From the IMG/VR virus record IMGVR_UViG_3300047321_000126, positions 1 through 48,260 of that record: 48,260 bases of DNA, one strand, 5' to 3'. Shown here piece by piece: positions 1-48,260 of this stretch. Below the pieces are notes generated by a model. It saw only the letters and a list, made by a program, of their open reading frames with translations, ran no database searches and was not told where the DNA came from. The DNA is from a virus. Within the stretch, counting starts at the first letter, position 1, and each line of letters opens with the position of its first letter. A program made the translations under genes and the position numbers.

Positions 1-274
1 TGATCTCCACCGACTTGGAGTCGGTGAGGATCTGGAGGTTGTCCTCCTTGTCGGTGTCCCACTCCTCCACGGCGCCGCCCATGAGCTGCGCGATGACGTC
101 GGCCACGGCGGGGTCACCGGTCGTGACGCGCCATTCGTTCAGGCTCTCCGGCTGCTTACCGACGAGCCGGCCGGAGCGGAAGCGGCCGACGACATCGTCG
201 GCGAAGTTCTGCTTCCGCGGCTTGGGCTTGGCGTCGGGGTCGGTCTCGAAGATGCTGCGAAGGTTGTTTGCCAT
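1..274 (-). CDS. Recombination directionality factor, phiC31 gp3-like (partial, C-terminus outside window)
   Basis: ATG at 274, running off the window at position 1; 91 residues visible. The N-terminus has the IFETDPDAKPKPR stretch, then GRFRSG, EWRVTTGDP (about 48-56) and a DNLQILTDSKSVEI strand, the pattern of the phiC31/phiBT1 gp3 family. In that family the protein binds the phage serine integrase and turns it from integration to excision. The window also encodes a serine integrase (36545-38200), the expected partner. The gene has its own phage-type promoter (340-368) and a GAGAGG ribosome site. Family assignment is from remembered motifs; the integrase partnership is inference. Confidence 0.65.
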   Translation of the reverse strand, partial: MANNLRSIFETDPDAKPKPRKQNFADDVVGRFRSGRLVGKQPESLNEWRVTTGDPAVADVIAQLMGGAVEEWDTDKEDNLQILTDSKSVEI

Positions 275-339: not shown

Positions 340-374
340 GTTATGGGGTGGAGCCCGGGAAATGTGACGCTCGA
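340..374 (-). promoter_or_regulatory. Phage promoter P1 (GTCACA-N17-CATAAC) for the RDF gene
   Basis: On the minus strand -35 GTCACA (368-363), a 17 bp spacer and -10 CATAAC (345-340). Flanks TCGAGC upstream and the C-rich CTCCACCCC spacer end are shared with the copies at 6845, 9824 and 47679. The predicted transcript begins near AAGGCGT and would carry a short hairpin, GGCGT-aagag-ACGCC. Confidence 0.75.
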
Positions 375-5457: not shown

Positions 5458-6005
5458 GCGCTCTCCCCCTTCAGTCGCGCGATCTCCCGCGCCTGGCTGA
5501 CGATGGTGTTCTTCAGGTCGTCGAGTAGCGAGCCGCCCGGGGCTGTCGCACTCCAGTACTCCGCGGAGGTCTCCAGGTCGGTAAGACGCTTCCGCAGCGC
5601 CTCACACTCCTTGGACTTCTCCTCGAAGTGCTCGTCCGCCACGTCTTCGCGGCGAATGGCGGCGTCCGCACGCTCCTTCTCGTTGCGGAGAAGGTCGCTC
5701 GCAGTGATGTGCTTAGCCGCCAGCTCGTCGCGCTCGTCGCTCAGACGCTCAATGCACGAAAGCGCGTCGTCCAGGGACGCCTTCAGCTCTGCGGTGACTG
5801 CGCCGACCAACCCCGCCCACTGTTCGCCGCCGACCGCAACGCCCATCTGGGATCGGGCGCCCGTGGTGGTCACGTGGGAAGGGCTCCAGTGCCGCGTCTC
5901 GAACAGCACCTCTACACGGCGCGGGTCCTCGTACTGCCGGACCTCCCCACCGTAGAAGCTGTGGGTGATCCGCCCGGGACGCCCGATCCTCCTGCCGTCG
6001 CTCAT
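5454..6005 (-). CDS. Coiled-coil protein, unknown function
   Basis: 183 residues from ATG 6005 (ATGA overlap with the nuclease gene). N-terminal 70 residues look globular (THSFYGGEVRQYEDPRRVEVLFE); from about 75 to the end it is heptad-like, rich in Glu/Lys/Leu. Co-transcribed with the Cas4-like nuclease under P2, so a recombination accessory role is possible but unproven. Confidence 0.6.
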   Translation of the reverse strand: MSDGRRIGRPGRITHSFYGGEVRQYEDPRRVEVLFETRHWSPSHVTTTGARSQMGVAVGGEQWAGLVGAVTAELKASLDDALSCIERLSDERDELAAKHITASDLLRNEKERADAAIRREDVADEHFEEKSKECEALRKRLTDLETSAEYWSATAPGGSLLDDLKNTIVSQAREIARLKGESA

Positions 6006-6805
6006 GCTGCCCGCCTCTGCGTGCCTGTCTCCGTCTCTCCGCCCTTCGCGATCGGCCGGCCAACCACGCCCTTCTTCCCTTCGCGGTCCCAGTCGAAGAC
6101 CTGGCGAAGCGCAAGGAAAGCGCGGAAGATGTCCTCGTCGCACGCCACGGGAACGAACTGCCAGCCCTCCGGACGCACATGGAGGACGGCGCCGCCAGTC
6201 ATCTCCGGGACGTGGATGGACTCGCCCGTCTCCGCAAGGATGATCCGGTCCGCGTAGCGGTAGGCGCTCAGCTGCAGCGCCACGGAGTCGTATACCGACT
6301 TGGAGGTCTTCCAGTCCAGGACCACGACCTCACCGTCCACACGGGCGATGGCGTCGAAGCTGCCGGCGTACAGGTGGGAGTCGCTCCACACCGTCTCCTC
6401 CAGGTGGAGGAACTCCGGCTGGATCTCGTCCAGGAACTCCTTGAAGTACTGAACGTGAGGCTTGACGTCCGCGTGTACCTGGCGCAGCGGGACGCTGTCA
6501 CCCCGCGCGAGTCGCTCGAAGTAGTCGTGAGCCGTCGACCCGAGATCAGACGCCGCCTTCGTCTTCCGACGGTGCGCGTTCTTCAGGTAGTCGATGGCGC
6601 CCTGCGGGTCGCGCTCGATCAGCTTGGAGACGATGTCCCAGTTGTTGACGGCCGCCTCCGCCGACTCCTTCGCTGCCCAGAACGTCAGGAAGTCCTTCGG
6701 CAGCATGCCCACGACGCTCGTCACGCCCGGGACCTTGATGTGTGCGTCGTTCGGGTCGATGTAGAAGCGGCTTCCGCCGCGCTTGATCGTTCCTACTCCG
6801 GCCAC
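6002..6805 (-). CDS. Cas4/RecB-like PD-(D/E)XK exonuclease
   Basis: 267 residues from GTG 6805 (GGAGG four bases upstream). Nuclease signature in order: H93 in GSTAHDYFE, E136/E137, D151 in YAGSFDAI, D164-x-K166 in VVLDWKTSK and Q178-x3-Y182 in QLSAY, which match the Cas4/RecB nuclease family. No Fe-S cysteine cluster is visible, so it is a cluster-less phage-type member. Such proteins process DNA ends in phage recombination and replication. Driven by its own phage promoter P2; first gene of its transcript. Confidence 0.85.
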   Translation of the reverse strand: MAGVGTIKRGGSRFYIDPNDAHIKVPGVTSVVGMLPKDFLTFWAAKESAEAAVNNWDIVSKLIERDPQGAIDYLKNAHRRKTKAASDLGSTAHDYFERLARGDSVPLRQVHADVKPHVQYFKEFLDEIQPEFLHLEETVWSDSHLYAGSFDAIARVDGEVVVLDWKTSKSVYDSVALQLSAYRYADRIILAETGESIHVPEMTGGAVLHVRPEGWQFVPVACDEDIFRAFLALRQVFDWDREGKKGVVGRPIAKGGETETGTQRRAA

Positions 6806-6844: not shown

Positions 6845-6880
6845 GTTATGGGGTGGAGACGGCGGGATGTGACGGTCGAT
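6845..6880 (-). promoter_or_regulatory. Phage promoter P2 (GTCACA-N17-CATAAC)
   Basis: -35 GTCACA (6873-6868), 17 bp, -10 CATAAC (6850-6845) on the minus strand. The leader begins AAGGCGT and forms GGCGT-N8-ACGCC, as at P1. It follows the AT-rich inverted repeat 6931-6999. Confidence 0.75.
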
Positions 6881-7058: not shown

Positions 7059-7796
7059 TCAGCCCCGTGAGCTGGGCTTTTGTGTCAGCTTGCGGAGCGA
7101 GGATAGCTTCCGCTCGATGGCTGCCAGCTCGACGTCAAGGGCGGCCCGTTGCCCGTCGGTCATGTGCCGCTTGATGACGTTCCGGTCCAGTTGTCCCAGG
7201 ATGTCCTTAGCCACCACAGCCAAGCGCAGATGGTCGGCCGTTGCTCGTACTGCCTTGCCGGCCTCTTCCCCTGTCGGTTCAGCCTTGCTCCGGCTTGGCT
7301 TCGGGGTGGACTCCTTGACGGCCGTCGACACCCTAGCGGCCTTGATGATCGACGAGTTCACCTTGCGGCTGTCCTGGAGCCGCTCCAGTGGCGACGTCGG
7401 CTGTAGGTCGTTCGCCTCCAACTCGCGCGGCGTCAGATGACGCCGGAGGAGGTTGCCGATATGCCACCGGACGGAGGCCTGCAGCGCGCTAGTGCTGTCG
7501 GATGGGATGCCCGCGCTTCGGTACATTTCCGCCACTACCTGACGGTATTCGTGGCTGGATCCACGCATGTCTTGGTGTTGGATACGCAGCGCAACGACGA
7601 CAACCGCAATGTTCCTGACGAGCGTGGTGGCTGCGCCTTGAATGCGGTGGTGTTCGCGTGCATACGCCGCACCACGGGCGACGAGTGCCGCCTCTCCCTC
7701 GTGCGCAAGGTCGTCCAGCTCCAGCGCGGGGAGGTCATCCACGCTGACGGGGACGGGGTCCCCTGATCTCTTCGTGGCGATCTCTCGGCTCATCAT
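7059..7796 (-). CDS. Actinophage early protein, possibly DNA-binding, unknown function
   Basis: 245 residues; ATG 7796 or 7793, with GAGAGG upstream. The middle has SALQASVRWHIGNLLRRHLTPRELEANDL (about 104-132), a segment reminiscent of proteins I have seen in Streptomyces phages with RYHIGN..LRERL repeats. Then a Ser/Lys-rich linker and a C-terminal basic helical region with DRNVIKRHMTDGQRAALDVEL. Overall basic and helical, fitting a DNA-binding role, but no named fold. It sits between the SprT-like protease and the Cas4-like nuclease. Confidence 0.6.
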   Translation of the reverse strand: MMSREIATKRSGDPVPVSVDDLPALELDDLAHEGEAALVARGAAYAREHHRIQGAATTLVRNIAVVVVALRIQHQDMRGSSHEYRQVVAEMYRSAGIPSDSTSALQASVRWHIGNLLRRHLTPRELEANDLQPTSPLERLQDSRKVNSSIIKAARVSTAVKESTPKPSRSKAEPTGEEAGKAVRATADHLRLAVVAKDILGQLDRNVIKRHMTDGQRAALDVELAAIERKLSSLRKLTQKPSSRG

Positions 7797-8966: not shown

Positions 8967-9206
8967 TTACGCGACGTCAGGTTCTTGGCGCCACGGGTAG
9001 TCCTCGTAACGCAGGTACCTGCATGCCGCCCGGAGTGCGCTGTCCCAGCTGTCGAAGTGGCCCCGAGGCCACCCGCCGATCTCGATGTACCAGAACGGCG
9101 GCACGTCCTCGTCAGGCTCTCCAGGACCGCCAATGATCCGCCAGCCGACGGCCTTCCGGACCTTCGGCTTTTGTGGCCAGCAGCAGCCGCAGTCGGCCCA
9201 CTCCAT
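8967..9206 (-). CDS. Small phage protein, unknown function
   Basis: 79 residues, TGATG coupling to the dNMP kinase stop. Begins MEWADCGCCW, a Cys cluster. The rest is Trp/Tyr-rich (PPFWYIEIGGWPRGHFDSWDSALRAACRYLR) and could be a small alpha/beta domain. Not recognised. Confidence 0.6.
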   Translation of the reverse strand: MEWADCGCCWPQKPKVRKAVGWRIIGGPGEPDEDVPPFWYIEIGGWPRGHFDSWDSALRAACRYLRYEDYPWRQEPDVA

Positions 9207-9793
9207 CAGGAGAGCGCCCGTGCGTAGTGCCGACGGGACTCGCGGTTGTAGATGAGATCCGCGACGGCGGACATCTCTTGCTGCAGGTCGTAAACCTCTC
9301 CGGAGTTATAGATCAGGTAGTCCGCGTCTTCCGCCGTTAGGGAGTTGTCGGATACGTGGTTGAATCGCGGCACGTCCTGGCGGTCGATGTGGACGAGATG
9401 GAAGCCGGCGCCACGGAGGGACTCCGCCTCGTTGGGGTACCTGACGTCAGTCACGACGACGGGGACACCGGACTCGTTGGCTTCCGCAGCCTTCTTCATT
9501 GCCGGCCGTACCCAGATGTCGGGGTCCACCTCCCGCGCTCCGTGACCAAGACGCTGAAGGAACGGGCGCGCTTCCGGGCACTCGTCCTTCGCCCGTTCCC
9601 ATCCCATCTCCGCCACGATGTCGGAGAGCCGTACCTCCTTGCCGACGAAATCGACGATCGGATTTAGTTCGAGCGCCATCTCCTTTACCGTGTCGCAGAA
9701 CGCGACCCGCCGGTATCCGCGGTTGTCGACGAGCCACGCGCCGGCCGTGTCCTTGCCGACGCGGGCCCGCCCGATGATGCCGATGTTCCCCAT
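9206..9793 (-). CDS. Deoxynucleoside monophosphate kinase (P-loop)
   Basis: 195 residues from ATG 9793 (GGAG just upstream; ATG 9802 is an alternative). N-terminal P-loop GRARVGKDT (8-16) after MGNIGII, the GxxxxGKD(T) form seen in phage dNMP kinases of the T4 gp1 type. VVVTDVRYPNEAESLRGAG is the characteristic second motif of that family. It would phosphorylate dNMPs to dNDPs to feed phage replication. Own promoter P3 at 9824. Confidence 0.8.
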   Translation of the reverse strand: MGNIGIIGRARVGKDTAGAWLVDNRGYRRVAFCDTVKEMALELNPIVDFVGKEVRLSDIVAEMGWERAKDECPEARPFLQRLGHGAREVDPDIWVRPAMKKAAEANESGVPVVVTDVRYPNEAESLRGAGFHLVHIDRQDVPRFNHVSDNSLTAEDADYLIYNSGEVYDLQQEMSAVADLIYNRESRRHYARALS

Positions 9794-9823: not shown

Positions 9824-9857
9824 GTTATGGGGTGGAGGATCGAAAATGTGACGGTCG
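9824..9857 (-). promoter_or_regulatory. Phage promoter P3 (GTCACA-N17-CATAAC)
   Basis: -35 GTCACA (9852-9847), 17 bp, -10 CATAAC (9829-9824). It lies just beyond the stop of the tail-fibre gene and 31 bp before the dNMP kinase, so it separates late from early transcription. Confidence 0.75.
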
Positions 9858-35475: not shown

Positions 35476-35553
35476 TGGTCGGGATAGTCAGATTCGAACT
35501 GACGACCCTCCGCTCCCAAAGCGGATGCGCTGACCAAGCTGCGCCATATCCCG
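35476..35553 (-). tRNA. tRNA-Pro (UGG)
   Basis: All arms pair: acceptor CGGGATA/TATCCCG, D stem GCGC/GCGC, anticodon stem TCCGC/GCGGA with loop TTTGGGA (anticodon TGG), T stem GTCAG/CTGAC with TTCGAAT. Discriminator A followed by an encoded CCA. Leftmost of the cluster. Confidence 0.9.
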
Positions 35554-35560
35554 ATGTCAG

Positions 35561-35638
35561 TCGGCAGCGAAGGAATCGAACCTCCGTCTCCGGACCATCG
35601 CCCGGTGATCTCACCGCTAGCAGTCAATCCCGCAGGCG
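35561..35638 (-). tRNA. Degenerate tRNA-like element
   Basis: Good T arm (GGAGG / CCTTC, loop TTCGATT) and acceptor 3' strand GCTGCCG with A. The best 5' acceptor strand, CGCCTGC, has two mismatches; the D loop is long; the anticodon stem CCGGG/TCCGG closes only six bases with no U33. It may be a decaying tRNA or a tRNA mimic. Confidence 0.35.
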
Positions 35639-35718
35639 AGTGCCATGGTCAACCCTGCGGCGAGATGCGTAGCCGTGCGTTCCCGTTGCCGGGCCCGCCA
35701 TTGATCTAGCTGCCGAAG

Positions 35719-35793
35719 TGGTCCCGGGAGGACTTGAACCTCCGCCCTCCGCATCCGTAGTACGGCGCTCTATCCAGACTGAGCTACGGGACC
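35719..35793 (-). tRNA. tRNA-Arg (ACG)
   Basis: Acceptor GGTCCCG/CGGGACC, D stem GCTC/GAGC, anticodon stem CCGTA/TGCGG with loop CTACGGA (anticodon ACG), T stem GGAGG/CCTCC with TTCAAGT. 75 nt, CCA not encoded. Confidence 0.9.
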
Positions 35794-36197: not shown

Positions 36198-36226
36198 GTT
36201 ATGGGGTGGGTGTGACACTTTGTTGA
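36198..36226 (-). promoter_or_regulatory. Promoter variant P5 upstream of the tRNA cluster
   Basis: Shares -10 CATAAC (36203-36198) and the C-rich CACCC spacer end with P1-P4, but GTCACA lies only 7 bp away. At the normal 17 bp distance the hexamer is TCAACA (36226-36221). Sits at the same place relative to the AT-rich repeat as P2 does. Confidence 0.5.
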
Positions 36227-39165: not shown

Positions 39166-39906
39166 TTGAATACTGCGCTGCGTGATGCTCTGTCAGCTGC
39201 CGGCGTGAGCCGCATTGGGCTCGCTCGTACCGTCGGAGTCGACGCCAAAACCGTGGAACGATGGATCTCGGATGAGTCCCGCGCTCCGCACCCTGGCACG
39301 CGCGAGGATGTAGCGCAGGCGTTAGGGGTTGGAGTAGAGATGCTGTGGCCACGGTCCGTAAGGAGCGTCGTCAAGACTGGCCCGGAGCGGGAGATCGTCA
39401 GTGCGTACCCGTACCGGAATGCGTGCCCGACGTCGGTTTGGTCCACGCTGATCGACTCCGCGTCGAAGAACATCACCTTTGCCGGCTACACCAACTACTT
39501 CCTGTGGCAGGAGCAGAGCCGCCTAGCCGACCGGCTAAAGTCAAAGGCGTCGGCCGGCTGCTCCGTGCGGTTCCTCGTCGGCGACCCCGCATCCGACGTC
39601 ACGCGCCGGCGCGAAGAGATCGAAGGCGTACCGCTGACGGTGGGCACGCGGATCCGGATCACCCTCGACGCGCTGCAGCGCATGGGCGACGTCCCGGGCG
39701 TCGAAGCGCGGTACTCGGATGACCACATCGCGCTCAGCGTCTTTATGTTCGATGACGAGATGTTGGTGACGCCCCATCTTTCGTCGCTGCTAGGTCACGA
39801 GTCGCCCATGCTTCATCTGCGGCGGCTAGGGGACGACGGACTGTACGACCGGTTTGCCGGCCACGTGGCGGCCTTGTGGGAGCACGGGCGTCCCGTCAAC
39901 GGCTGA
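39166..39906 (+). CDS. XRE-family regulator with DUF5919/PLD-like domain, candidate repressor
   Basis: 246 residues from TTG 39166 (GGGGG five bases upstream). Helix-turn-helix at about 8-36 (VSRIGLARTVGVDAKTVERWI). C-terminal domain with YPYRNACPTSVWSTLIDSASKNITFAGY, RLKSKASAGCSVRFLVGDP and SVFMFDDEMLVTPHL, as in actinobacterial XRE-DUF5919 proteins distantly like phospholipase D. Plus strand, opposite int; the best candidate for the immunity repressor. Ligand unknown. Confidence 0.8.
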   Translation: MNTALRDALSAAGVSRIGLARTVGVDAKTVERWISDESRAPHPGTREDVAQALGVGVEMLWPRSVRSVVKTGPEREIVSAYPYRNACPTSVWSTLIDSASKNITFAGYTNYFLWQEQSRLADRLKSKASAGCSVRFLVGDPASDVTRRREEIEGVPLTVGTRIRITLDALQRMGDVPGVEARYSDDHIALSVFMFDDEMLVTPHLSSLLGHESPMLHLRRLGDDGLYDRFAGHVAALWEHGRPVNG

Positions 39907-41335: not shown

Positions 41336-42079
41336 TCACGCGCCAACGGTGCGGCGGCTGTTAGCAAACACTGTAGAACACTCGCGCATGTCGACGAGCG
41401 GTCCAGGGAACTTCATGATGCGCGGGTTGGGCCCGTTGGCCGCGCCCCTGATCGTCACGTCGCTCAGCCCCAACGCCTCCGCGGCTTCGCTGTACGTCAC
41501 GAGAACGGGCTCCTGCGGCTCTTCGGCGACCGGCGTGGGGTCTTCCTGCTTCAGAGACTCCGTGGGCTCTCCAGCGTCCGCCTGTGCCCTTCGCTCCAGC
41601 TCCTCACGGACCCACGCGGGTGCGCTGGGCGCGTCGTCGACTGCGACGTCCGTGGGCGGGTCGATGTGAAGCACGTGCGCGGCGACCAACGGCGGAACGG
41701 CGGAGACAACGACGACAACCCATAGCGTTGGGCCGAAGACGGTAGCGGTGATCACGTGTTCCGTGACCTGCGCGGCCGTTGCCATGAGCAGCGCCAGGAG
41801 CGCGCCAGTCGTTGCGTTGCGGGAACGTCGCTTCGCCTCGTTCTCGTATCGCGTTCCGACGGCAACGCGGGCGGCCTCCTTCTGCGCCTTCGCAACGCTC
41901 GCCCCGATCGCGGCGTACAGGCTCATCACGGCCGGCATGAGCCAGGCGAAGCGTGCGTCCCAGCCGGCCATCTGCGCGAGCGCGTACTCACCGGGCGCGG
42001 AGAGTGCCAGGGCGGCGTAGAGAACGGCGGTCTGCCCGTACTTCCGGGCCAGTCTGACGTGTGCGGGGGTCTTCGGCAT
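41336..42079 (-). CDS. DUF2637/SpdB-like membrane protein with C-terminal helix-turn-helix
   Basis: 247 residues from ATG 42079. Three to four membrane helices (about 16-35, 42-62, 88-108, 113-135) with APGEYALAQMAGWDARFAWLMPAVMSLYAA, typical of the DUF2637/SpdB-like family of Streptomyces plasmids and phages. After an acidic linker, VTYSEAAEALGLSDVTIRGAANG (about 193-215) is a MerR/XRE-like helix-turn-helix. Plasmid members are linked to intermycelial spread; here the role is open. Confidence 0.7.
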   Translation of the reverse strand: MPKTPAHVRLARKYGQTAVLYAALALSAPGEYALAQMAGWDARFAWLMPAVMSLYAAIGASVAKAQKEAARVAVGTRYENEAKRRSRNATTGALLALLMATAAQVTEHVITATVFGPTLWVVVVVSAVPPLVAAHVLHIDPPTDVAVDDAPSAPAWVREELERRAQADAGEPTESLKQEDPTPVAEEPQEPVLVTYSEAAEALGLSDVTIRGAANGPNPRIMKFPGPLVDMRECSTVFANSRRTVGA

Positions 42080-42125
42080 GGCTCCTCATTGGTGTGCACG
42101 GGGGTGTGGGTAAGTGGTACGGGTG

Positions 42126-42156
42126 GAGCCCCCGCCATCGCAACTGGCAGGGGCTC
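42126..42156 (-). terminator. Hairpin terminator
   Basis: AGCCCC-CGCC / GGC-GGGGCT stem, 14 nt downstream of the 42170 stop. Confidence 0.6.
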
Positions 42157-42169
42157 CAGGGGTGTCGCA

Positions 42170-42502
42170 CTAGCTGCGCTTATCCGCTATCTCACGGACG
42201 CGGAACATAGCGGCCTTGACGCTCGGTCCGTCAGTCCACGGGGCGCCGGCATGCGCCTGGCGGATCTTCGAGAAGAGGCGCAGGGTTCCCGTGCCGCGGG
42301 AGTGCCACGTGTACTTGAAGTACTCCCGGCTGTCAGGGTCGGCCACGTGGACCGTGACGAACGGGCTGTTACCGCTGTCCTCCGCCCACTGCCAACCGGT
42401 GGTCCAGCCGGACAGAGCGGCGGTGTTGAGCAGTCCGACGGCCGCCTTGGGAAGAGCAAATCCCGCCGGGGCGTCCTGTGTGCCGAACTTGTTGTCGATC
42501 AT
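42170..42502 (-). CDS. Small phage protein, unknown function
   Basis: 110 residues from ATG 42502 (GGGGAGG upstream). Beta-rich, with FVTVHVADPDSREYFKYTWHSRGTGTLRLF and a final helix. Controlled by the operator-promoter at 42552-42581 and closed by a terminator, so it is a one-gene unit. Not recognised. Confidence 0.65.
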   Translation of the reverse strand: MIDNKFGTQDAPAGFALPKAAVGLLNTAALSGWTTGWQWAEDSGNSPFVTVHVADPDSREYFKYTWHSRGTGTLRLFSKIRQAHAGAPWTDGPSVKAAMFRVREIADKRS

Positions 42503-42551
42503 GGCGTTTCCTCCCCTGCCGGACCCTCCGTGAGTCCCTGGCGTGGCTCAA

Positions 42552-42581
42552 CTATGACACACTTGAGTCGGCCGACACAAG
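42552..42581 (-). promoter_or_regulatory. Operator-promoter TTGTGT-N17-TCATAG
   Basis: The 20 bp near-perfect palindrome CTTGTGTCGGCCGACTCAAG (42581-42562) covers the -35 (42580-42575). The -10 (42557-42552) contains the TAG stop of the upstream 42552-42776 gene. Confidence 0.7.
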
Positions 42582-42776
42582 TCCCTTCGGCGAACTTCCG
42601 TAAGTCGACTCACGGAGCATCGCCACGAGCGCTCCCCCGGGCAGCTCCACCACCCATCCGCCGCGGACTCTCGTCCGTCCGTAGCCGGCACTCACGGCCT
42701 GGCGGAGGAAGTGGCGCTGTGCCACGTCGTCGACGATGCCCGATGCGCCGCACTCCATCGTCAGGCGGTAACGCAT
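42552..42776 (-). CDS. Small phage protein whose 3' end runs through palindrome and promoter
   Basis: 74 residues from ATG 42776, overlapping the upstream gene. RYRLTMECGASGIVDDVAQRHFLRQAVSAGY ... WVVELPGGALVAML. The last 20 residues (starting RESTYG) are encoded by palindrome copy 5 and the following operator-promoter, so they probably arose by read-through into regulatory DNA. Not recognised. Confidence 0.5.
   Translation of the reverse strand: MRYRLTMECGASGIVDDVAQRHFLRQAVSAGYGRTRVRGGWVVELPGGALVAMLRESTYGSSPKGLVSADSSVS
42597..42616. repeat. Dispersed palindrome, copy 5
   Basis: TCCGTAAGTCGACTCACGGA, 16 bp upstream of the -35 at 42580; inside the 3' end of the 42552-42776 gene. Confidence 0.85.
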
Positions 42777-43366
42777 CCCAGCTCCTTCGCCCTCGTCACG
42801 ACGACCTTGCGGTCCGCGGGGATGACGGCGTCGCCTCCGCCCACGAAGCTGATGTGGACGTGGTTGCGGAGCGCCGTGGGCCAGGTGCTGTGTGTCGCCG
42901 TCCGCTCGTGGCCGTGGAGGGTGAAGACGTCGCCGGCTCGGATGTCGCGGGCGGTGACGGTGAGGGTGACGTGGGCGGGGTCGACGGACATGCTGGCCTC
43001 CTTCACGAGGGCCTTGCGGTTGATCACGACGACTACGGGTCGCTCTTCGACGACGACCGAGGCGGCCTCCGCACGCTGCTCAACGCACCAATGGTGGCCG
43101 CACTCCCCACCGATCTCCATCGGGTGACCCTCGTCGCACAGCTCGAAAGTGCCCGGGGCGAACCACTCGGATCCGAAGCGACCGCTAGAGGGTCCCTCCA
43201 CGTCAGTGAAGTCGATGCTGTTGCGCAGCCACTTCAGTGCGTCCTCTTCAGTGCCAAGGTGCTTACCCATGTCGGTGCCGTTCAGGGTCACGCGGGTGTA
43301 GCCGAAGTCGGCGCCACGAGCCTTGACGACCTTCAGCTTGCGGCCCTTGTAGGTCTCGGTCTTCAT
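42761..43366 (-). CDS. Actinophage early protein, unknown function
   Basis: 201 residues from ATG 43366 (AAGGAGAG upstream). KTETYKGRKLKVVKARGADFGYTRVTLNGTDMG, then ALKWLRNSIDF, a Cys/His cluster CDEGHP ... CGHHWC (about 77-94) and a C-terminal beta region with an AGDVFTLHG phrase similar to the 46125-46658 product. First gene of an operator-promoter transcript. Confidence 0.6.
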   Translation of the reverse strand: MKTETYKGRKLKVVKARGADFGYTRVTLNGTDMGKHLGTEEDALKWLRNSIDFTDVEGPSSGRFGSEWFAPGTFELCDEGHPMEIGGECGHHWCVEQRAEAASVVVEERPVVVVINRKALVKEASMSVDPAHVTLTVTARDIRAGDVFTLHGHERTATHSTWPTALRNHVHISFVGGGDAVIPADRKVVVTRAKELGCVTA

Positions 43367-43401
43367 GGTCTCTCCTTCGTCAGTCCCTTGCGTTGCCTCG
43401 A

Positions 43402-43431
43402 TGATGACACACTTGAGTCGGCCGACACAAG
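43402..43431 (-). promoter_or_regulatory. Operator-promoter TTGTGT-N17-TCATCA
   Basis: Same 20 bp palindrome as at 42562 (43431-43412), -35 43430-43425, -10 43407-43402. It drives the 42761-43366 gene. Confidence 0.7.
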
Positions 43432-43446
43432 CCCAGCTGACGAACT

Positions 43447-43466
43447 TCCGTAAGTCGACTCACGCA
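43447..43466. repeat. Dispersed palindrome, copy 6
   Basis: TCCGTAAGTCGACTCACGCA, between the sortase-like stop and the promoter, 16 bp from the -35 at 43430. Confidence 0.85.
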
Positions 43467-43467
43467 C

Positions 43468-44253
43468 CTACACCCGACGCAGCAGCGAGAACCCCGTCCC
43501 GTCCCCCACGCAGGTCTGCAGAACGAGCGCCGGCGAGCCGGGGAACGTGGGGATCGATCCGCCCTGACGCCCGATCCGCAGGCGGCCGTAGACCTCGTAG
43601 GTCCCTGCGAGCGGGCCGGAGATGACGCGTACTTCCTGGCCGACGGGTACGCGGGCGAGCCACTGATAGCCCATGTAGGCGTGCCCCGCGAGGATCCGTC
43701 CGGCGTACATCGTCAGGGCTCCGGCGTCGATGCACTCCTGAGCGTGGCCGGTGCAGTTGCGGTAGAAGCTGATGCGGATGTCGGCCGGCGGCGTCGCGAT
43801 CGGGTGGCGCGTCGTCGGTGTCGTCGACGGAGTGGCGATGTGCTCCACCATCAGTGCCTTGCGCTCCCCGTGGCGGCTCGTGTTCGTCGACGAGCGGGGC
43901 TCCGGAGTCGGGTAGTAGGGCTCGACGCCCTCCGACGTCCGGCTGAAGTACGGGGCCGGCGCCATGTCCGACGTCGGGTGGCTCGTCGGGTTCGCCAGGA
44001 CCACGGAGAGGGCGAGTGCGGTTGCAGCCCCGGCGGTGACAGCTGCAGCGCGGAACGGGCCGCGGGAGGGACGGCCGGTGTGGGCCAGTCGACCCCGCAT
44101 GTTCCAGATGTCCATCTGTCGTCGCTCCCCGCGCGGGAACAACGTCCGCTGCGCGTAGTCGGGTCGCAGCTCCAGCGTGCCAGCAACCCGCATCCACATG
44201 TACGACTTGCCGAACAGCGCGGTCCGGCCGACGAACGTCTCTCGGGAGTGCAT
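43468..44253 (-). CDS. Membrane-anchored sortase-like protein
   Basis: 261 residues from ATG 44253 (GGAG eight bases upstream). A membrane helix at about 66-88 (GPFRAAAVTAGAATALALSVV) follows a basic N-terminus, so the C-terminal part is extracytoplasmic, then a Pro/Ser/Thr-rich linker. The domain from about 155 has LAGHAYMGYQW (H191), VPVGQEVRV, GTYEVYG, LVLQTC (C248) and FSLLRRV (R259/R260), the His-Cys-Arg order and spacing of sortases. It would act on surface proteins or could be an inactive relative. Fold assignment by motif only. Confidence 0.6.
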   Translation of the reverse strand: MHSRETFVGRTALFGKSYMWMRVAGTLELRPDYAQRTLFPRGERRQMDIWNMRGRLAHTGRPSRGPFRAAAVTAGAATALALSVVLANPTSHPTSDMAPAPYFSRTSEGVEPYYPTPEPRSSTNTSRHGERKALMVEHIATPSTTPTTRHPIATPPADIRISFYRNCTGHAQECIDAGALTMYAGRILAGHAYMGYQWLARVPVGQEVRVISGPLAGTYEVYGRLRIGRQGGSIPTFPGSPALVLQTCVGDGTGFSLLRRV

Positions 44254-44255
44254 CG

Positions 44256-44408
44256 TCACTTCTCCTCTTCCCTCGTCGGCGTCGGTCCGCCGGCCTTGCG
44301 CATGTCCGTGTGGAGCTGGCTGACGGCCGACCGGCGGTTCGTCGTGGCTGTGGCGTGGAAGCGGTCGAACGCGGCCTGTACGGCGGCGTCTCGGGTGTTG
44401 CGGGTCAT
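44256..44408 (-). CDS. 50-residue small protein, unknown function
   Basis: ATG 44408 with GGGGAGGAG upstream; stop overlaps the ribosome site of the sortase-like gene. Sequence DAAVQAAFDRFHATATTNRR is helical and basic. Missed by a 60-residue cut-off but well placed: it fills the gap between coupled genes exactly. Not recognised. Confidence 0.6.
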   Translation of the reverse strand: MTRNTRDAAVQAAFDRFHATATTNRRSAVSQLHTDMRKAGGPTPTREEEK

Positions 44409-44653
44409 GGCGTCTCCTCCCCTTCGATCTCTCGCTTCAGCTCGTTCAGCAGCCGCGTCATTGTCGGCTCGTCGGCGAGCAGTCGCGTCGTGTGCTCGTT
44501 GTGAATCAGGTACTCCCCTACCCGGTACGTGGTGGCCTCCGGGTACCGCGTGGCCATCTGCCGTGCACGGGCGCGGGCCACGTCGACGGGAATCTCCGGG
44601 TAAGCAGCCATGAGCTTGTCTGCCGCCCGTCGGATCTTCAGTGCTTTCAGCAT
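44405..44653 (-). CDS. Small helical protein, unknown function
   Basis: 82 residues from ATG 44653 (GGGGGAG upstream). RRAADKLMAAYPEIPVDVARARARQMATRYPEATTYRVGEYLI, then an acidic helix LLNELKREIEGEE. Overlaps the next start (ATGA). Not recognised. Confidence 0.6.
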   Translation of the reverse strand: MLKALKIRRAADKLMAAYPEIPVDVARARARQMATRYPEATTYRVGEYLIHNEHTTRLLADEPTMTRLLNELKREIEGEETP

Positions 44654-44661
44654 CGCTCCCC

Positions 44662-44874
44662 CTAGAGCCGGATCACGTCGACGTGGTCGCCGCGGAGGTA
44701 AGTCATGATCAGCGGGTGACCGTTGGGCCAGTCCCGTAAGTGCGTCTGTACCCGCAGGACACTTGTGGAGGTCACCCATACGTCGACCACACGAGCGAGC
44801 GGGACACGGTTGCCGTCCAGGAGGCCGACGAGCCAGTCTCCGGGGCGTATGTCGGGGAAGCTGGGGATGTCCAT
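44662..44874 (-). CDS. Small SH3-like protein, unknown function
   Basis: 70 residues from ATG 44874. IRPGDWLVGLLDGNRVPLARVVDVWVTSTSVLRVQTHL suggests a small all-beta barrel. Not recognised. Confidence 0.55.
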   Translation of the reverse strand: MDIPSFPDIRPGDWLVGLLDGNRVPLARVVDVWVTSTSVLRVQTHLRDWPNGHPLIMTYLRGDHVDVIRL

Positions 44875-44903
44875 GCCGCCTCCTCTGCGGGTCGTTCTTC
44901 GAG

Positions 44904-44980
44904 TGCCCCGCCGCGGATTCGAACCGCGCGCCCGCCGGCACTGGGGGTGCCGGGTTGATCGGGCGATGCCTAGGCGGGGC
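44904..44980 (-). tRNA. tRNA-like element with non-canonical D and anticodon arms
   Basis: Perfect acceptor GCCCCGC/GCGGGGC and T arm CGCGG-TTCGAAT-CCGCG. The anticodon hairpin CGGCA/TGCCG has loop CCCCCAG, with C in place of U33 (nominal anticodon CCC); it extends to a 7 bp stem with a 5 nt loop. No D stem pairs. Isolated from the main tRNA cluster. Confidence 0.45.
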
Positions 44981-44988
44981 GAGTGTGC

Positions 44989-45216
44989 CTAGCGTCGGAG
45001 GTAAGCGCCCGTTGCGTCGTCGTACCGGATGTAGCTCTTCCGCTCCTCCAACGCGTTCGCGATCTCGGGGACGTTGGTCGGGTTGACGGTTCCGACGAAC
45101 CCACGCCACGAGAACACTGCTGCCTCCCGACCGGTCAGCGTTACCTTGCTGATTCGCTGTCCCCAGAGCTGAAAGCGCTCGTCGGCCGCGAGGTGGATCA
45201 CGATCTTCTTCGCCAT
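44989..45216 (-). CDS. Small phage protein, unknown function
   Basis: 75 residues from ATG 45216 (GGAGGAGAG upstream). KKIVIHLAADERFQLWGQRISKVTLTGREAAVFSWRGFVGTV ... NALEERKSYIRYDD: mixed strands then helix. Not recognised. Confidence 0.6.
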   Translation of the reverse strand: MAKKIVIHLAADERFQLWGQRISKVTLTGREAAVFSWRGFVGTVNPTNVPEIANALEERKSYIRYDDATGAYLRR

Positions 45217-45269
45217 CTCTCCTCCTCCTACGGCCTGCCTCATCAGCGCGGGTAGGCCAGTCCCCGCGG

Positions 45270-45285
45270 ACGCCCCGGAGGGCGT
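45270..45285 (-). terminator. Small GC hairpin after the 45301 stop
   Basis: ACGCCC-cgga-GGGCGT, no U-tract; weak terminator candidate. Confidence 0.35.
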
Positions 45286-45300
45286 TTCGGCGATTCGCGC

Positions 45301-45693
45301 TCAGTCGCTGAAGCAGGTGAAGCGGTCGGTGACGTCGTTGCCGTTGGCGTCCCGGACCGCGATGTCCCACGCCTCACCACGGTCTGCGGCACGGGAGACG
45401 ATGCGTCCGATGGTCTCCACGGCACGAGCCGGCCGGCCATCGCGGACCTGAACGCCCTGGCTCGTCTCGTAGGTGAGCGTGTAGAGGGGCGCCAGCTGCG
45501 CGAACCGCTTGCCGTTGTGCGTCTTGGTCACGACGAGGCCCGCGTCCTCCGCCTCCTGAACGGCCCGGCTGATGCCCAGCTGCGCCGACCCCATGCCCCA
45601 ACCCATCGTGGCAACTGCGGTCCAGTCGTAGGAGGTGCCGGTGAGTCGGGCGACAACGTCGGCGACGGTGGCGGAGACCGTGGTGTCAATCAT
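45301..45693 (-). CDS. Winged-helix-like small protein, unknown function
   Basis: 130 residues from ATG 45693 (AGGAGAGG upstream). N-terminal TVADVVARLTGTSYDWTAVATMGWGMGSAQLGISRAVQEAEDAGLVVTKTHNGKRFAQL reads as helix, helix, wing and suits a small winged helix; the rest is a beta/alpha tail. First gene behind operator-promoter 45740-45770. A DNA-binding role is inference. Confidence 0.55.
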   Translation of the reverse strand: MIDTTVSATVADVVARLTGTSYDWTAVATMGWGMGSAQLGISRAVQEAEDAGLVVTKTHNGKRFAQLAPLYTLTYETSQGVQVRDGRPARAVETIGRIVSRAADRGEAWDIAVRDANGNDVTDRFTCFSD

Positions 45694-45739
45694 GATGTCC
45701 TCTCCTGCCGGACTCTCCGTGAGTCCCTGGCGTGCGTTC

Positions 45740-45770
45740 ATAGTTGCACACTTGAGCCGACCGACACAAG
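45740..45770 (-). promoter_or_regulatory. Operator-promoter, TTGTGT with AACTAT
   Basis: Palindrome CTTGTGTCGGTCGGCTCAAG (45770-45751) over the -35 TTGTGT (45769-45764). The -10 is AACTAT with an 18 bp spacer (or CAACTA with 17). Confidence 0.65.
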
Positions 45771-45775
45771 AGACT

Positions 45776-45795
45776 TCCGTAAGTCGATTCACGGA
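45776..45795. repeat. Dispersed palindrome, copy 7
   Basis: TCCGTAAGTCGATTCACGGA, only 6 bp upstream of the -35 at 45769, about ten bp closer than copies 3, 5 and 6. Confidence 0.85.
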
Positions 45796-45802
45796 ACGAC
45801 GA

Positions 45803-45828
45803 AGGCCCGGAGCCGAAGCCCCGGGCCC
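45803..45828 (-). terminator. Hairpin terminator
   Basis: GGCCCGG / CCGGGCC arms, 10 nt loop, seven bases after the 45835 stop. Confidence 0.6.
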
Positions 45829-45834
45829 TGTGCG

Positions 45835-46125
45835 TCAGCCGGCGAGAAACTCCGCCAGGCGGATGATGTCGTCCGCGGTGTGCGTCGTGCCCGCGAGGTG
45901 CTCCTTCGCGCGGGCCACGAGGGCGTCACGGTCAGACGGTGAGCCGACGCGCTCTACATCGTGCATCCACACCTCGCGCTTCTCGTCGTCAAGCGCCACC
46001 AGATAGGGGTAGATATCCCCGACGTCAACCTTCGTGACCGAGCCCGTGTAGCCGTCGTAGACACCGGTCCCGGCTACAAGCTCCCGGACTACACGAACCC
46101 GGTCGCCGATCTTGATGTCTGCCAT
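45835..46125 (-). CDS. KOW/SH3-like small protein, unknown function
   Basis: 96 residues from ATG 46125 (GAGGAGAAG upstream, TGATG coupling). DIKIGDRVRVVRELVAGTGVYDGYTGSVTKVD is a KOW-like barrel motif; the C-terminal helix SDRDALVARAKEHLAGTTHTADDIIRLAEFLAG resembles that of the upstream gene (DLTELADYLAEEK), so the pair may be a duplication. Confidence 0.6.
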   Translation of the reverse strand: MADIKIGDRVRVVRELVAGTGVYDGYTGSVTKVDVGDIYPYLVALDDEKREVWMHDVERVGSPSDRDALVARAKEHLAGTTHTADDIIRLAEFLAG

Positions 46126-46658
46126 CACTTCTCCTCCGCCAGGTAGTCGGCCAGCTCGGTCAGGTCGAACGCGGTGTAGGACTGGCTGCCGCTCATGAGG
46201 TCCATGGCCTGCTCCAGCAGTGCCGCGCGGGACGGGGCGGAGTCGTCCAGGGCGACGACCTTCGACATGTCGATGACTGGCTTGTCGTTGATCTTCTCCA
46301 CGTCCGTCGGCCGAAAGATCCAGCCGCCAGCGTCAATGTCGCCAGGGTCCGCAGCGTCAAGGCCCCTCACCGTGAACACATCACCTGCCTTGACGTCGGC
46401 GAAGTTGGCCCCGTCAGTCATTACGCGAACGCTGTCTCCAACCTTGACGGTGGACATTTCCGCCACCTCTCCCCCGTCGACCTCATCGGCCAGGGCCAGG
46501 ATGCCGCGGGCGAAGGTTCGGGCGTCGGCCGGCGTCAGGAACGGGTCCGATACCGCGCTTCCCTCCGCATAGGCGGTGAAGATCACGGATGTACCGTTCT
46601 GGCCCGCCTTCACACGCTGATCGGCGTCGTAGCGGCACTGTGCGATGTGCTCGGTCAT
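46125..46658 (-). CDS. Two-part early protein with SH3-like centre, unknown function
   Basis: 177 residues from ATG 46658 (AGAGGAGAG upstream). N-terminal half (1-65) is like the 40925-41326 product (LTPADARTFARGILALADE); second half, VKVGDSVRVMTDGANFADVKAGDVFTVRGL, is SH3/KOW-like as in the downstream gene, ending in a helix. Looks like a fusion of two small phage modules. Confidence 0.6.
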   Translation of the reverse strand: MTEHIAQCRYDADQRVKAGQNGTSVIFTAYAEGSAVSDPFLTPADARTFARGILALADEVDGGEVAEMSTVKVGDSVRVMTDGANFADVKAGDVFTVRGLDAADPGDIDAGGWIFRPTDVEKINDKPVIDMSKVVALDDSAPSRAALLEQAMDLMSGSQSYTAFDLTELADYLAEEK

Positions 46659-46687
46659 GCTCTCTCCTCTGTCGTCGTGCTCGTTAG

Positions 46688-46709
46688 CTCCGTAAGTCGA
46701 CTCACGGAG
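46688..46709. repeat. Dispersed palindrome, copy 8
   Basis: The most symmetrical copy: CTCCGTAAGTCGACTCACGG plus AG, between the 46711 stop and the 46658 start. Confidence 0.85.
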
Positions 46710-46710
46710 G

Positions 46711-46845
46711 TCAGTCGATGAACTCCGCGTCGAAGAGGCGGGAGTCCTCCAGCGCCTCCACGGCAGCCAGGACATCGGCGCCCCACAGGGCGGCCTCCTC
46801 CGGCCGGACTCCCTGGAGGTCGTAGTCGTCAAGGGACGGGTACAT
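46711..46845 (-). CDS. 44-residue acidic small protein
   Basis: ATG 46845 with AGGAGAAAG upstream. DLQGVRPEEAALWGADVLAAVEALEDSRLFDAEFID is acidic and helical. Between the sigma-like gene and palindrome copy 8. An anti-sigma or DNA-mimic role would fit its place and charge but is guesswork. Confidence 0.5.
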   Translation of the reverse strand: MYPSLDDYDLQGVRPEEAALWGADVLAAVEALEDSRLFDAEFID

Positions 46846-46862
46846 GGGCTTTCTCCTGTCGA

Positions 46863-46875
46863 GTAAGTGACTTAC
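46863..46875. repeat. Dispersed palindrome, degenerate copy 9
   Basis: GTAAGTGACTTAC: the centre has lost one base of GTCGAC. Overlaps the stop of the sigma-like gene (46872). Confidence 0.55.
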
Positions 46876-47648
46876 GCAGCGATGTTGTGAGCGTCGGCCA
46901 CGATGCGTGCGCGGGCCGTGCCGTTCTTCCGGAGCTGCCTGAGTGCCGCGCACTGCCTGTGGCTGTTGATTCCCAGCTCGTCGCTGGCCTGTTCATCGCT
47001 GGTCTTCATCATCCCGATGCCGTAGAAGGCACGGAGAGCGAAGGACTGTCGGGGTGCGATCTCTCCCAGGAGGAAGCGCGCGACGTCGCGGCTCTCGGTG
47101 GGCGCCACGAAGTCGGCAGTAGTGTCCGGAAGAACGTCCGCCCACGTCAGATCGCTGTCTCCGCTCGACACCGGGGCGTCCAGGCTGTCGGTCTCCATGA
47201 GCGCCTCACACACACTTACAAATGCTTCACGCGACATACGGTGACGGGGCTCCGGGTCAGTCGATACGGTCATCCAAGCGCCTTCGACGTCGCCCCCCGT
47301 CGACGCAAGGGCGCGCTTCACCCGAATCACCGTCGTCGGGTCCACCGACAGTGCAGTCGTGGACTTGATGTTGGCTTCCACCACCGCACGACGGACAGCC
47401 TGGAAGGCGTAGCTGTGAAGTTGGGCCTTCGCTCCCTCGGTGTCGTAGTCGCGAACGTGCTCCATGAGCGCCACACGCGCCTCCTGGAGGAGATCCTCCG
47501 CGTCCTCCCGGTCGGCGTTCGGTACCGCGGAGCGGACGGCGCTCTTCAGTACCGGCTCATAAGCGCTGAGGATGTCCCACATGGCGTCGGTGTCGCCGGC
47601 CTGCGCCTGGCGGATCTGCTCATCAGTCACAGTGCGGTTCGTACGCAT
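46872..47648 (-). CDS. Sigma-70-family-like RNA polymerase factor
   Basis: 258 residues from ATG 47648 (AGAGGAGAC upstream). Region 2-like segment at about 25-100 (LSAYEPVLKSAVRSAVPNADREDAEDLLQEARVALMEHVRDYD, then HSYAFQAVRRAVVEAN), a linker, and a region 4-like helix-turn-helix at about 195-245 (IAPRQSFALRAFYGIG ... SDEQASDELGINSHRQCAALRQLRKNG). This is the layout of an ECF-type or phage sigma factor. Transcribed from phage promoter P4, so it may direct the P1-P4 family; which step is inference. Confidence 0.7.
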   Translation of the reverse strand: MRTNRTVTDEQIRQAQAGDTDAMWDILSAYEPVLKSAVRSAVPNADREDAEDLLQEARVALMEHVRDYDTEGAKAQLHSYAFQAVRRAVVEANIKSTTALSVDPTTVIRVKRALASTGGDVEGAWMTVSTDPEPRHRMSREAFVSVCEALMETDSLDAPVSSGDSDLTWADVLPDTTADFVAPTESRDVARFLLGEIAPRQSFALRAFYGIGMMKTSDEQASDELGINSHRQCAALRQLRKNGTARARIVADAHNIAA

Positions 47649-47678
47649 GGGGTCTCCTCTAGTGCTTGGTGTGCCTGA

Positions 47679-47713
47679 GTTATGGGGTGGACGAGCGAAA
47701 ATGTGACGCTCGA
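47679..47713 (-). promoter_or_regulatory. Phage promoter P4 (GTCACA-N17-CATAAC) for the sigma-like gene
   Basis: -35 GTCACA (47707-47702), 17 bp, -10 CATAAC (47684-47679). Flanks TCGAGC and CATAACTCAGG as in P3. Confidence 0.75.
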
Positions 47714-47799
47714 TATTTGTGACCTGGACCACACAGGTGGGCGGACGTCAGGGCATGACGAGCCGCCCTGTGTGCAGGTAGTGGTGAGTTGATGGCGCT

Positions 47800-47819
47800 C
47801 CCCCGTGTCGGCCCGGGGG
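47800..47819 (-). terminator. Hairpin terminator
   Basis: CCCCCG / CGGGGG arms, 8 nt loop; after palindrome copy 10 and before promoter P4, so the sigma-like gene is isolated. Confidence 0.55.
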
Positions 47820-47828
47820 TGCGCGGTG

Positions 47829-47850
47829 CTCCGTGAGTCGCCTTACGGAG
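47829..47850. repeat. Dispersed palindrome, copy 10
   Basis: CTCCGTGAGTCGCCTTACGG plus AG, one mismatch in the centre, six bases after the 47857 stop. Confidence 0.8.
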
Positions 47851-47856
47851 GCGGGA

Positions 47857-48078
47857 TCAGGCGGGAAGATCCTTCACGGGCCAGCCGAACGCGTCGGCAA
47901 TGCCCACGTCGGCCATGGCCTGCGCACAGCACTCCCAGCCGGCCATCCGGTAGAGCGCCGTGACGTCGAGCCAGGTGACGCCGTCATTCATCAGCTGCGC
48001 GTCGAGCAGCCCCGCCATTTCGTGCAGCGCGCCCAGTTCGTCAGGCGTCCTCTGCGGTCCCGTCAGCATGATCGTCAT
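47857..48078 (-). CDS. Small phage protein, unknown function
   Basis: 73 residues from ATG 48078 (GGGGGG upstream; ATG 48069 possible). LTGPQRTPDELGALHEMAGLLDAQLMNDGVTWLDVTALYRMAGWECCAQAMADVGIADAFGWPVKDL is helical with WECC. Overlaps the upstream gene by 38 nt. Not recognised. Confidence 0.6.
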   Translation of the reverse strand: MTIMLTGPQRTPDELGALHEMAGLLDAQLMNDGVTWLDVTALYRMAGWECCAQAMADVGIADAFGWPVKDLPA

Positions 48079-48260
48079 TGAATCCCCCCGGGACTAGGAC
48101 CGGCTCCTCCCCCTCCCATCGGGCGAGTGCGCGATCCATTGATGCGGTGGTTCCTCGCACGTAGGCGACTGCGTAAGTCACGTACTCGGCACCAGTTTTG
48201 AGTACGTTAAGCAGAGCATCACGGGCGGAGTCGAGTGCCGTTCGCTCGGTCGGTCGAGAG
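48041..48260 (-). CDS. Partial gene at the right edge, unknown function
   Basis: Open from the window edge to TGA at 48041; 72 C-terminal residues, with ALLNVLKTGAEYVTYAVAYV (helical), then ASMDRALARWEGEEPVLVPGGF and an acidic tail. The start is beyond the window. It carries a half-site of the dispersed palindrome (GCGTAAGTCAC, about 48171-48181). Confidence 0.5.
   Translation of the reverse strand, partial: SRPTERTALDSARDALLNVLKTGAEYVTYAVAYVRGTTASMDRALARWEGEEPVLVPGGFNDDHADGTAEDA

Follow-up and report, generated by a model that had tools for sequence, protein, structure and literature searches.

A sigma-70-family factor and its probable phage-specific promoter class in a temperate Streptomyces phage

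A temperate Streptomyces phage encodes a sigma-70-family factor that very likely (probability of about 0.87) drives a promoter class of its own, comprising the sites P1 to P4 and probably P5; core binding, transcription and timing are inferred. The genomes compared here show directly to which family the protein belongs, where the promoter copies lie and which genes they precede, as well as the concerted divergence of the promoter boxes between phages and the covariation of these boxes with the recognition helix.

The window, that is, the whole stretch of DNA analysed, is a 48,260-base IMG/VR virus record corresponding to a fragment of this phage. It shares approximately 77% DNA identity with phage Samy across its terminase-to-capsid part. 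Its gene order is of the phiC31 kind, and the minus strand holds nearly all genes. One end of the record lies inside the recombination directionality factor (RDF) gene and the other upstream of the sigma gene. Because the record is cut at these points, it lacks the primase and polymerase that would be expected between the two genes.

The phage protein is a sigma-70-family factor

46872..47648, minus strand: phage sigma-70-family factor, 258 aa, gp12/SAMYPH_68 family
46935..46937, minus strand: codon of Q238, equivalent to sigma70 Q589 and covarying with the -35 box (RpoD profile alignment and box-class test)

The sigma ORF has an ATG start, an AGAGGAG ribosome-binding site and a stop codon. 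An alternative GTG start at 47732 (286 aa) was rejected as less likely, as P4 would fall inside the gene. A preliminary description of the window had claimed that this 258-residue protein contains region 2-like and region 4-like segments, and this claim held in Pfam for region 2, and in the RpoD profile comparison and in the AlphaFold2/Foldseek analysis. Region 2 matched Pfam Sigma70_r2 (7.3e-8, above the gathering score), a profile also matched in 19 of 19 aligned homologues, and the PHROGs match was RNA polymerase sigma factor (3.6e-18). Region 4 gave no Pfam match. A profile of the 19 homologues aligned with RpoD across regions 2 to 4 (E 1.9e-8), and this alignment reaches the recognition helix, with 'ALRQLR' of the window sigma placed on 'RIRQIE' of sigma70; Q238 of the window sigma is therefore equivalent to sigma70 Q589. 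This residue (Q414 in Thermus) touches -35 bases in sigma-70 structures.

Structure prediction had been suggested as a check. The AlphaFold2 model (mean pLDDT 81, pTM 0.46) places region 4 at residues 183–253, with the last helix at 233–253. Using Foldseek, the model was matched full-length (~260 columns) to sigma factors including sigmaS, sigmaB and SigA, the best being sigmaS (6e-6). Overall TM-scores were low (~0.25–0.37) because domain placement is uncertain. Sequence and model together show a sigma-70-family factor with region 2 and a region 4 helix-turn-helix, while binding to core polymerase and promoter-specific initiation are inferred.

We also considered assignment to the ECF (group IV) sigma factors, which was rejected. 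The Pfam Sigma70_ECF match (0.08) is below the cut-off, and TIGR02937 scored 41.8 bits against a cut-off of 42.9. Moreover, helices 104–152 sit where region 3 is expected, and the RpoD alignment crosses region 3.

A four-copy element lies upstream of early-type genes

A direct-repeat search of the window was where the four-copy family first surfaced. P1 to P4 are a single element, GTCACA-N17-CATAAC, located upstream of the RDF, exonuclease, dNMP kinase and sigma genes. In the window, the consensus CGTCACATN9TCCACCCCATAACTNAGG has 4 mismatch-free matches, every one on the minus strand, where shuffles give an expectation of 0.00.

340..368, minus strand: P1, GTCACA-N17-CATAAC
1..274, minus strand: RDF gene, downstream of P1, truncated by the window end, 62% identity to Samy gp48
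6845..6873, minus strand: P2, GTCACA-N17-CATAAC
6002..6805, minus strand: exonuclease gene, downstream of P2, 77% identity to Samy gp34
9824..9852, minus strand: P3, GTCACA-N17-CATAAC
9206..9793, minus strand: dNMP kinase gene, downstream of P3, 58% identity to Samy gp29
47679..47707, minus strand: P4, upstream of the sigma gene, with -35 GTCACA at 47702-47707, a 17-nt spacer and -10 CATAAC at 47679-47684
36198..36216, minus strand: P5, compact GTCACA-N7-CATAAC upstream of the tRNA/late region
35476..35793, minus strand: tRNA-Pro and tRNA-Arg, downstream of P5

The preliminary description had placed P4 in the same family as P1 to P3. This held, with four perfect copies that we take to be its P1–P4. 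Its proposal that the sigma switches on replication, nucleotide and excision genes is supported by the identity of the downstream genes, although transcription is inferred. P5 by itself does not exceed chance (8 of 100 shuffles); it carries weight because ten phages share the compact copy.

Each hexamer matches the host consensus at four of six positions (GTCACA versus TTGACA and CATAAC versus TATAAT), and given these matches some activity of host sigma on P1–P4 is conceivable. A sigma-70 consensus scan of 42000–48260, which includes P4, gave no match. The labels '-35' and '-10' are used by analogy, as transcription start sites have not been mapped.

Promoter boxes diverge in concert between phages

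The comparison set consisted of related phages and prophages, 20 of which carry the sigma family of the window. In 19 of these 20, the sigma-gene element recurs on the same strand, usually in three further copies, with scores exceeding any opposite-strand score; the lone exception to recurrence, G016, is a 14.5-kb fragment. The copies of the upstream element agree inside each phage and differ jointly from phage to phage. Most phages have GTCACA, and the variants are GAAACA (G002 and G007), CTGACA (G006), CTCACA (G010 and G012) and ACTGGA (G009), with G020 carrying mixed GTGACA/GAAACA boxes. Variants on the -10 side are CATAAC, CATATA, CATACC, CAYAAC and CACTAC. Since the host RNA polymerase is common to all phages, a phage-encoded reader is the natural cause of this joint divergence.

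A similar arrangement is present in the phiC31 group (8 phages), with boxes GTTGCC in phiC31, GTCGCC in TG1 and GTCACC in the rest, approximately 9–13 sites per phage and a copy upstream of gp12 in all eight. Scanning phiC31, phiBT1, Attoomi, Sycamore and the Arthrobacter and Microbacterium phages with the window matrix returned no convincing site, and the phiC31 and phiBT1 boxes emerged solely by de novo search. For Attoomi and Sycamore, the region upstream of the sigma gene holds a recurring element of their own, while no convincing element was found in the Arthrobacter phages and Elva. A viral-contig scan with phiC31 gp12 returned only phiC31 itself.

The box class follows the recognition helix of the sigma

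The box-class test covered 173 protein columns and left out G006 and G009, which have unique boxes. Q238 was the single column that fully separated the box classes (mutual information, MI, of 0.65 versus 0.36 for the runner-up): the residue is V, V and M in the GAAACA-type phages and Q, K or R in the GTCACA/CTCACA phages. The association is carried by three GAAACA-type phages, of which two are sisters and one (G020) has mixed boxes; on the sigma tree, two changes are required to account for the GAAACA label. When MI was computed for all protein-DNA column pairs, Q238 with DNA position 6 reached a z of 4.2 and was not first. We cite the focused -35-class test because the top ranks of the all-pair analysis mainly follow phylogeny. 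G009, excluded from the test, combines the most aberrant box with the most aberrant helix (SVQPYRAE).

Between the gp12 proteins of phiC31 and phiBT1, the recognition helix is the least conserved 12-mer (17% versus 71% overall), and the boxes of these two phages differ only in the upstream half. Across the phiC31 group, the box differs where the recognition helix differs, the pairing being N/Q (helix) with C/T (box), and H or N versus Y (helix) with A/G (box). Phages phiC31 and TG1 are single cases, and this residue-base pairing is offered as a possible lead rather than a statistic. Sequence covariation shows that the box variants are linked to the region 4 recognition helix, in the absence of binding data. 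The preliminary description had regarded the boxes as non-host elements, which is supported by their concerted, phage-specific divergence and by this link.

Two side observations concern region 4. The sigmas of the window, G001 and G015, which form one clade and still have the GTCACA box, carry a 4-aa insertion immediately ahead of the recognition helix (approximately residues 226–233). In addition, the sigma genes of IMGVR_UViG_2912640942 and of an S. microflavus sequence (L021) are near-identical, and the copy in the former is frameshifted; it reads 210 aa and has lost region 4, with its promoter unchanged.

Compact sites at the tRNA/late region

At the late/tRNA site of ten phages, the same phage-specific boxes lie exactly 10 bp closer, with a spacer of 7 rather than 17. 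The tRNA survey, in which spacers of 3 to 22 were permitted, found close matches only at 7 or 17. Spacer 7 was detected in nine phages (the window, G001, G002, G004, G007, G009, G010, G013 and Samy), and direct reading added G003. Spacer 17 is present at this site in G005 and G006, and G011 has a 17-nt copy that may be its late site, with no tRNA found there. G009, G002, G007 and G010 keep their own variant box at this site, and the phiC31 group uses the compact form (about 7 nt) at all sites.

The spacer-7 copies depart from standard -35/-10 geometry. A bolder reading is that one phage sigma reads both boxes at 17 nt (early) and at 7 nt (tRNA/late), which we regard as an open proposal with the odds against it. 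If it were true, the -35/-10 spacing would jump by a full helical turn with function kept, against standard sigma-70 geometry, and spacing could encode early versus late timing.

As a separate observation, the compact late copies (the window, L006, Samy and others) mostly run on into GTAG(G)AGGGAAG, 4 nt past the -10 box. Conserved across phages, this motif is likely to be the transcript start, though start sites have not been mapped.

A Crp-type dyad distinguishes the sigma promoter

47719..47732, minus strand: Crp-type dyad GTGGTCCAGGTCAC, whose start is 25 nt upstream of the -35 box of P4

A GTG-N8-CAC dyad was found at the sigma promoter of 19 of the 20 phages, compared with none of 56 other early sites (within 60 nt), with a chance expectation of ~0.02 per site. 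Relative to the -35 box of the sigma gene, its start is 25–26 nt upstream in 18 of the 20 phages and 36 nt upstream in another. Three phages of the phiC31 group (phiC31, TG1 and Shawty) have GTGAC-N4-GTCAC in the corresponding area. The Streptomyces Crp consensus is quoted as GTG(N6)GNCAC (PMC10033298); the window dyad fits it, as do, by eye, approximately 16 of the 20 phages. As a sequence match, a Crp-type site is present at P4, and both Crp binding and regulation, in either direction, are inferred. Because the sigma promoter has this dyad and the other early sites are without it, expression of the sigma is probably not under sigma control alone.

Inverted repeats and repressor genes

47829..47850, no strand assigned: conserved inverted repeat CTCCGTGAGTCGCCTTACGGAG, lying upstream of the sigma gene and inferred to be a probable repressor operator

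Nine palindromes like CTCCGTAAGTCGACTTACGGAG are present in the window, starting at approximately 393, 4730, 8575, 25339, 42597, 43447, 45776, 46688 and 47829. Counterparts occur in G001 and G002, and a repeat similar in style but with another sequence (CCTACTCACGTGAGTAGG) is present in phiC31 and phiBT1. These palindromes and inverted repeats like CCGTAAGTCGACTTACGG are likely to be repressor operators, repressor action being inferred.

A second promoter-like family, TTGTGT-N18-CATAGT, occurs at 42509-42588, 43359-43438 and 45698-45777 of the window and also in L006 and L007. A 22-bp near-palindrome, ACTTGTGTCGGCCGACACAAGT, lies over its -35 part, directly adjoined by an inverted repeat like CTCCGTAAGTCGACTTACGGAG. 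These sites resemble, and may be, host-type, repressor-controlled promoters of small genes.

Two repressor-like genes were also observed. The minus-strand gene at 7059-7796 is a homologue (46% identity) of the Samy putative immunity repressor SAMYPH_32; the phiC31 repressor gene is much longer. The gene at 39166-39906, among the few on the plus strand, is HTH repressor-like (phrog_2328, 7e-5), adjoins the integrase and has a position like that of Samy gp91.

Comparison with known systems

One close point of reference is the gp12 system of Lomovskayavirus phiC31, also found in phiBT1, TG1, Vash and Shawty. Both groups share the sigma family and phage boxes at the sigma gene, at the dNMP kinase, exonuclease and RDF positions and upstream of the tRNA. 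The sigma gene is downstream of the DNA polymerase in phiC31, phiBT1, TG1, Samy, Attoomi, Sycamore, Yang and others; in the window, the position of the polymerase gene would fall beyond the contig end. The window does have the gp12-type feature of a phage-specific box preceding the sigma gene as well as further early genes. The gp12 proteins of phiC31 and phiBT1 differ in being ~390 aa long, with region 4 preceded by a long insert, and share 22–24% identity with the window sigma. Their boxes are GTTGCC or GTCACC, 7 nt and then CTTAC or CTTCA, compact throughout. The phiC31 box, GGTTGCCGACTCCCTTAC, is not that of the window, whose GTCACA-N17-CATAAC follows the same logic with another sequence and spacing. 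The phiC31 early promoters were reportedly mapped in the 1990s and found to be active only in the lytic cycle; to our knowledge, no activator of them has been identified.

Samy is another. SAMYPH_68 shares 45% identity with the window sigma, in the same synteny, and Samy has four GTCACA-N17-CAYAAC sites, including one at its own sigma gene, and a compact late site. Its -10 side is ATTACGACAYAAC, compared with CCACCCCATAAC in the window. SAMYPH_68 is annotated only as 'RNA polymerase sigma factor', and the Samy paper (PMC11302927) does not use the word 'promoter' in its main text.

SPO1 gp28 and gp33/gp34 and T4 gp55 are phage sigmas that turn the host core polymerase towards promoters of the phage, and they serve middle or late genes. 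The window sigma differs in that it belongs to a temperate actinophage, is associated with its own gene and with genes of the early/replication type, and has a Crp-type box at its promoter. The label of sigma factor is itself not new, as phiC31 gp12, Samy gp68 and others already bear it in RefSeq. In the literature searched, which did not cover the 1990s phiC31 promoter papers, we found no paper linking this sigma family to phage-specific early promoters. While phage sigma factors as such are known, the assignment of the promoters, the coevolution, the Crp-type box and the two spacings (17 and 7) are likely to be undescribed, subject, for the promoter link, to that limit of the literature search.

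Alternative explanations

P1–P4 could be ordinary host (HrdB) promoters, the sigma-like protein having some other role. The 17-nt spacer and the four-of-six match of each hexamer do resemble the host consensus, but the consensus scan around P4 was negative, and a shared host polymerase explains neither the joint shift to GAAACA or ACTGGA nor why the helix follows. We consider this explanation very unlikely. Somewhat harder to set aside, though still unlikely, is that another phage activator binds the upstream box, with the sigma reading only the -10 or being unrelated. In its favour, the box lies 17 or 7 nt from the -10, a difference of one helical turn, an arrangement seen more often with activators than with -35 elements. 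Against it, the boxes track the sigma helix at the Q589 position, and do so also in phiC31, phiBT1 and TG1, although not every other gene was screened.

It could also be argued that this sigma relative reroutes host genes rather than phage genes, as Bacillus phage sigmas that alter host programmes are known (PMC9429907). The window phage and its relatives, however, bear several matching promoters at lytic genes, and this possibility is considered very unlikely.

Proposed mechanism

In the reading that we prefer, of a phage sigma acting on its own promoter class, the sigma would replace the host sigma on the core RNA polymerase of the host, or compete with it. Its region 4 helix (233–253, with Q238) would read the -35 GTCACA and its region 2 the -10 CATAAC, across the 17-nt spacer. 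On induction, a little sigma would first be made by read-through or from a host-driven, Crp-type-gated start, and the sigma would then amplify itself through P4 in a positive feedback loop. The self-amplification put forward in the preliminary description is partly supported, by P4 lying in front of the sigma gene; amplification in time and core binding are inferred. The sigma would activate the exonuclease (P2), dNMP kinase (P3) and RDF (P1) genes, with the tRNA/late region (P5) as a probable further target. P4 may be gated by a Crp-type regulator of the host, and a phage repressor would probably silence the sigma system in lysogens, such control being inferred.

Phages phiC31 and phiBT1 are workhorses of actinomycete genetics, and no named factor is known to us to stand behind their phage-specific early promoters. 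The data point to a single gene, helix and residue, and provide a testable answer to what drives the phiC31 early promoters. Natural pairs of phage variants make a specificity swap simple, and the set could offer a natural test of how sigma region 4 shifts specificity and provide orthogonal sigma/promoter pairs for Streptomyces. The Crp-type box, in turn, suggests a possible link from the cAMP state of the host to phage development.
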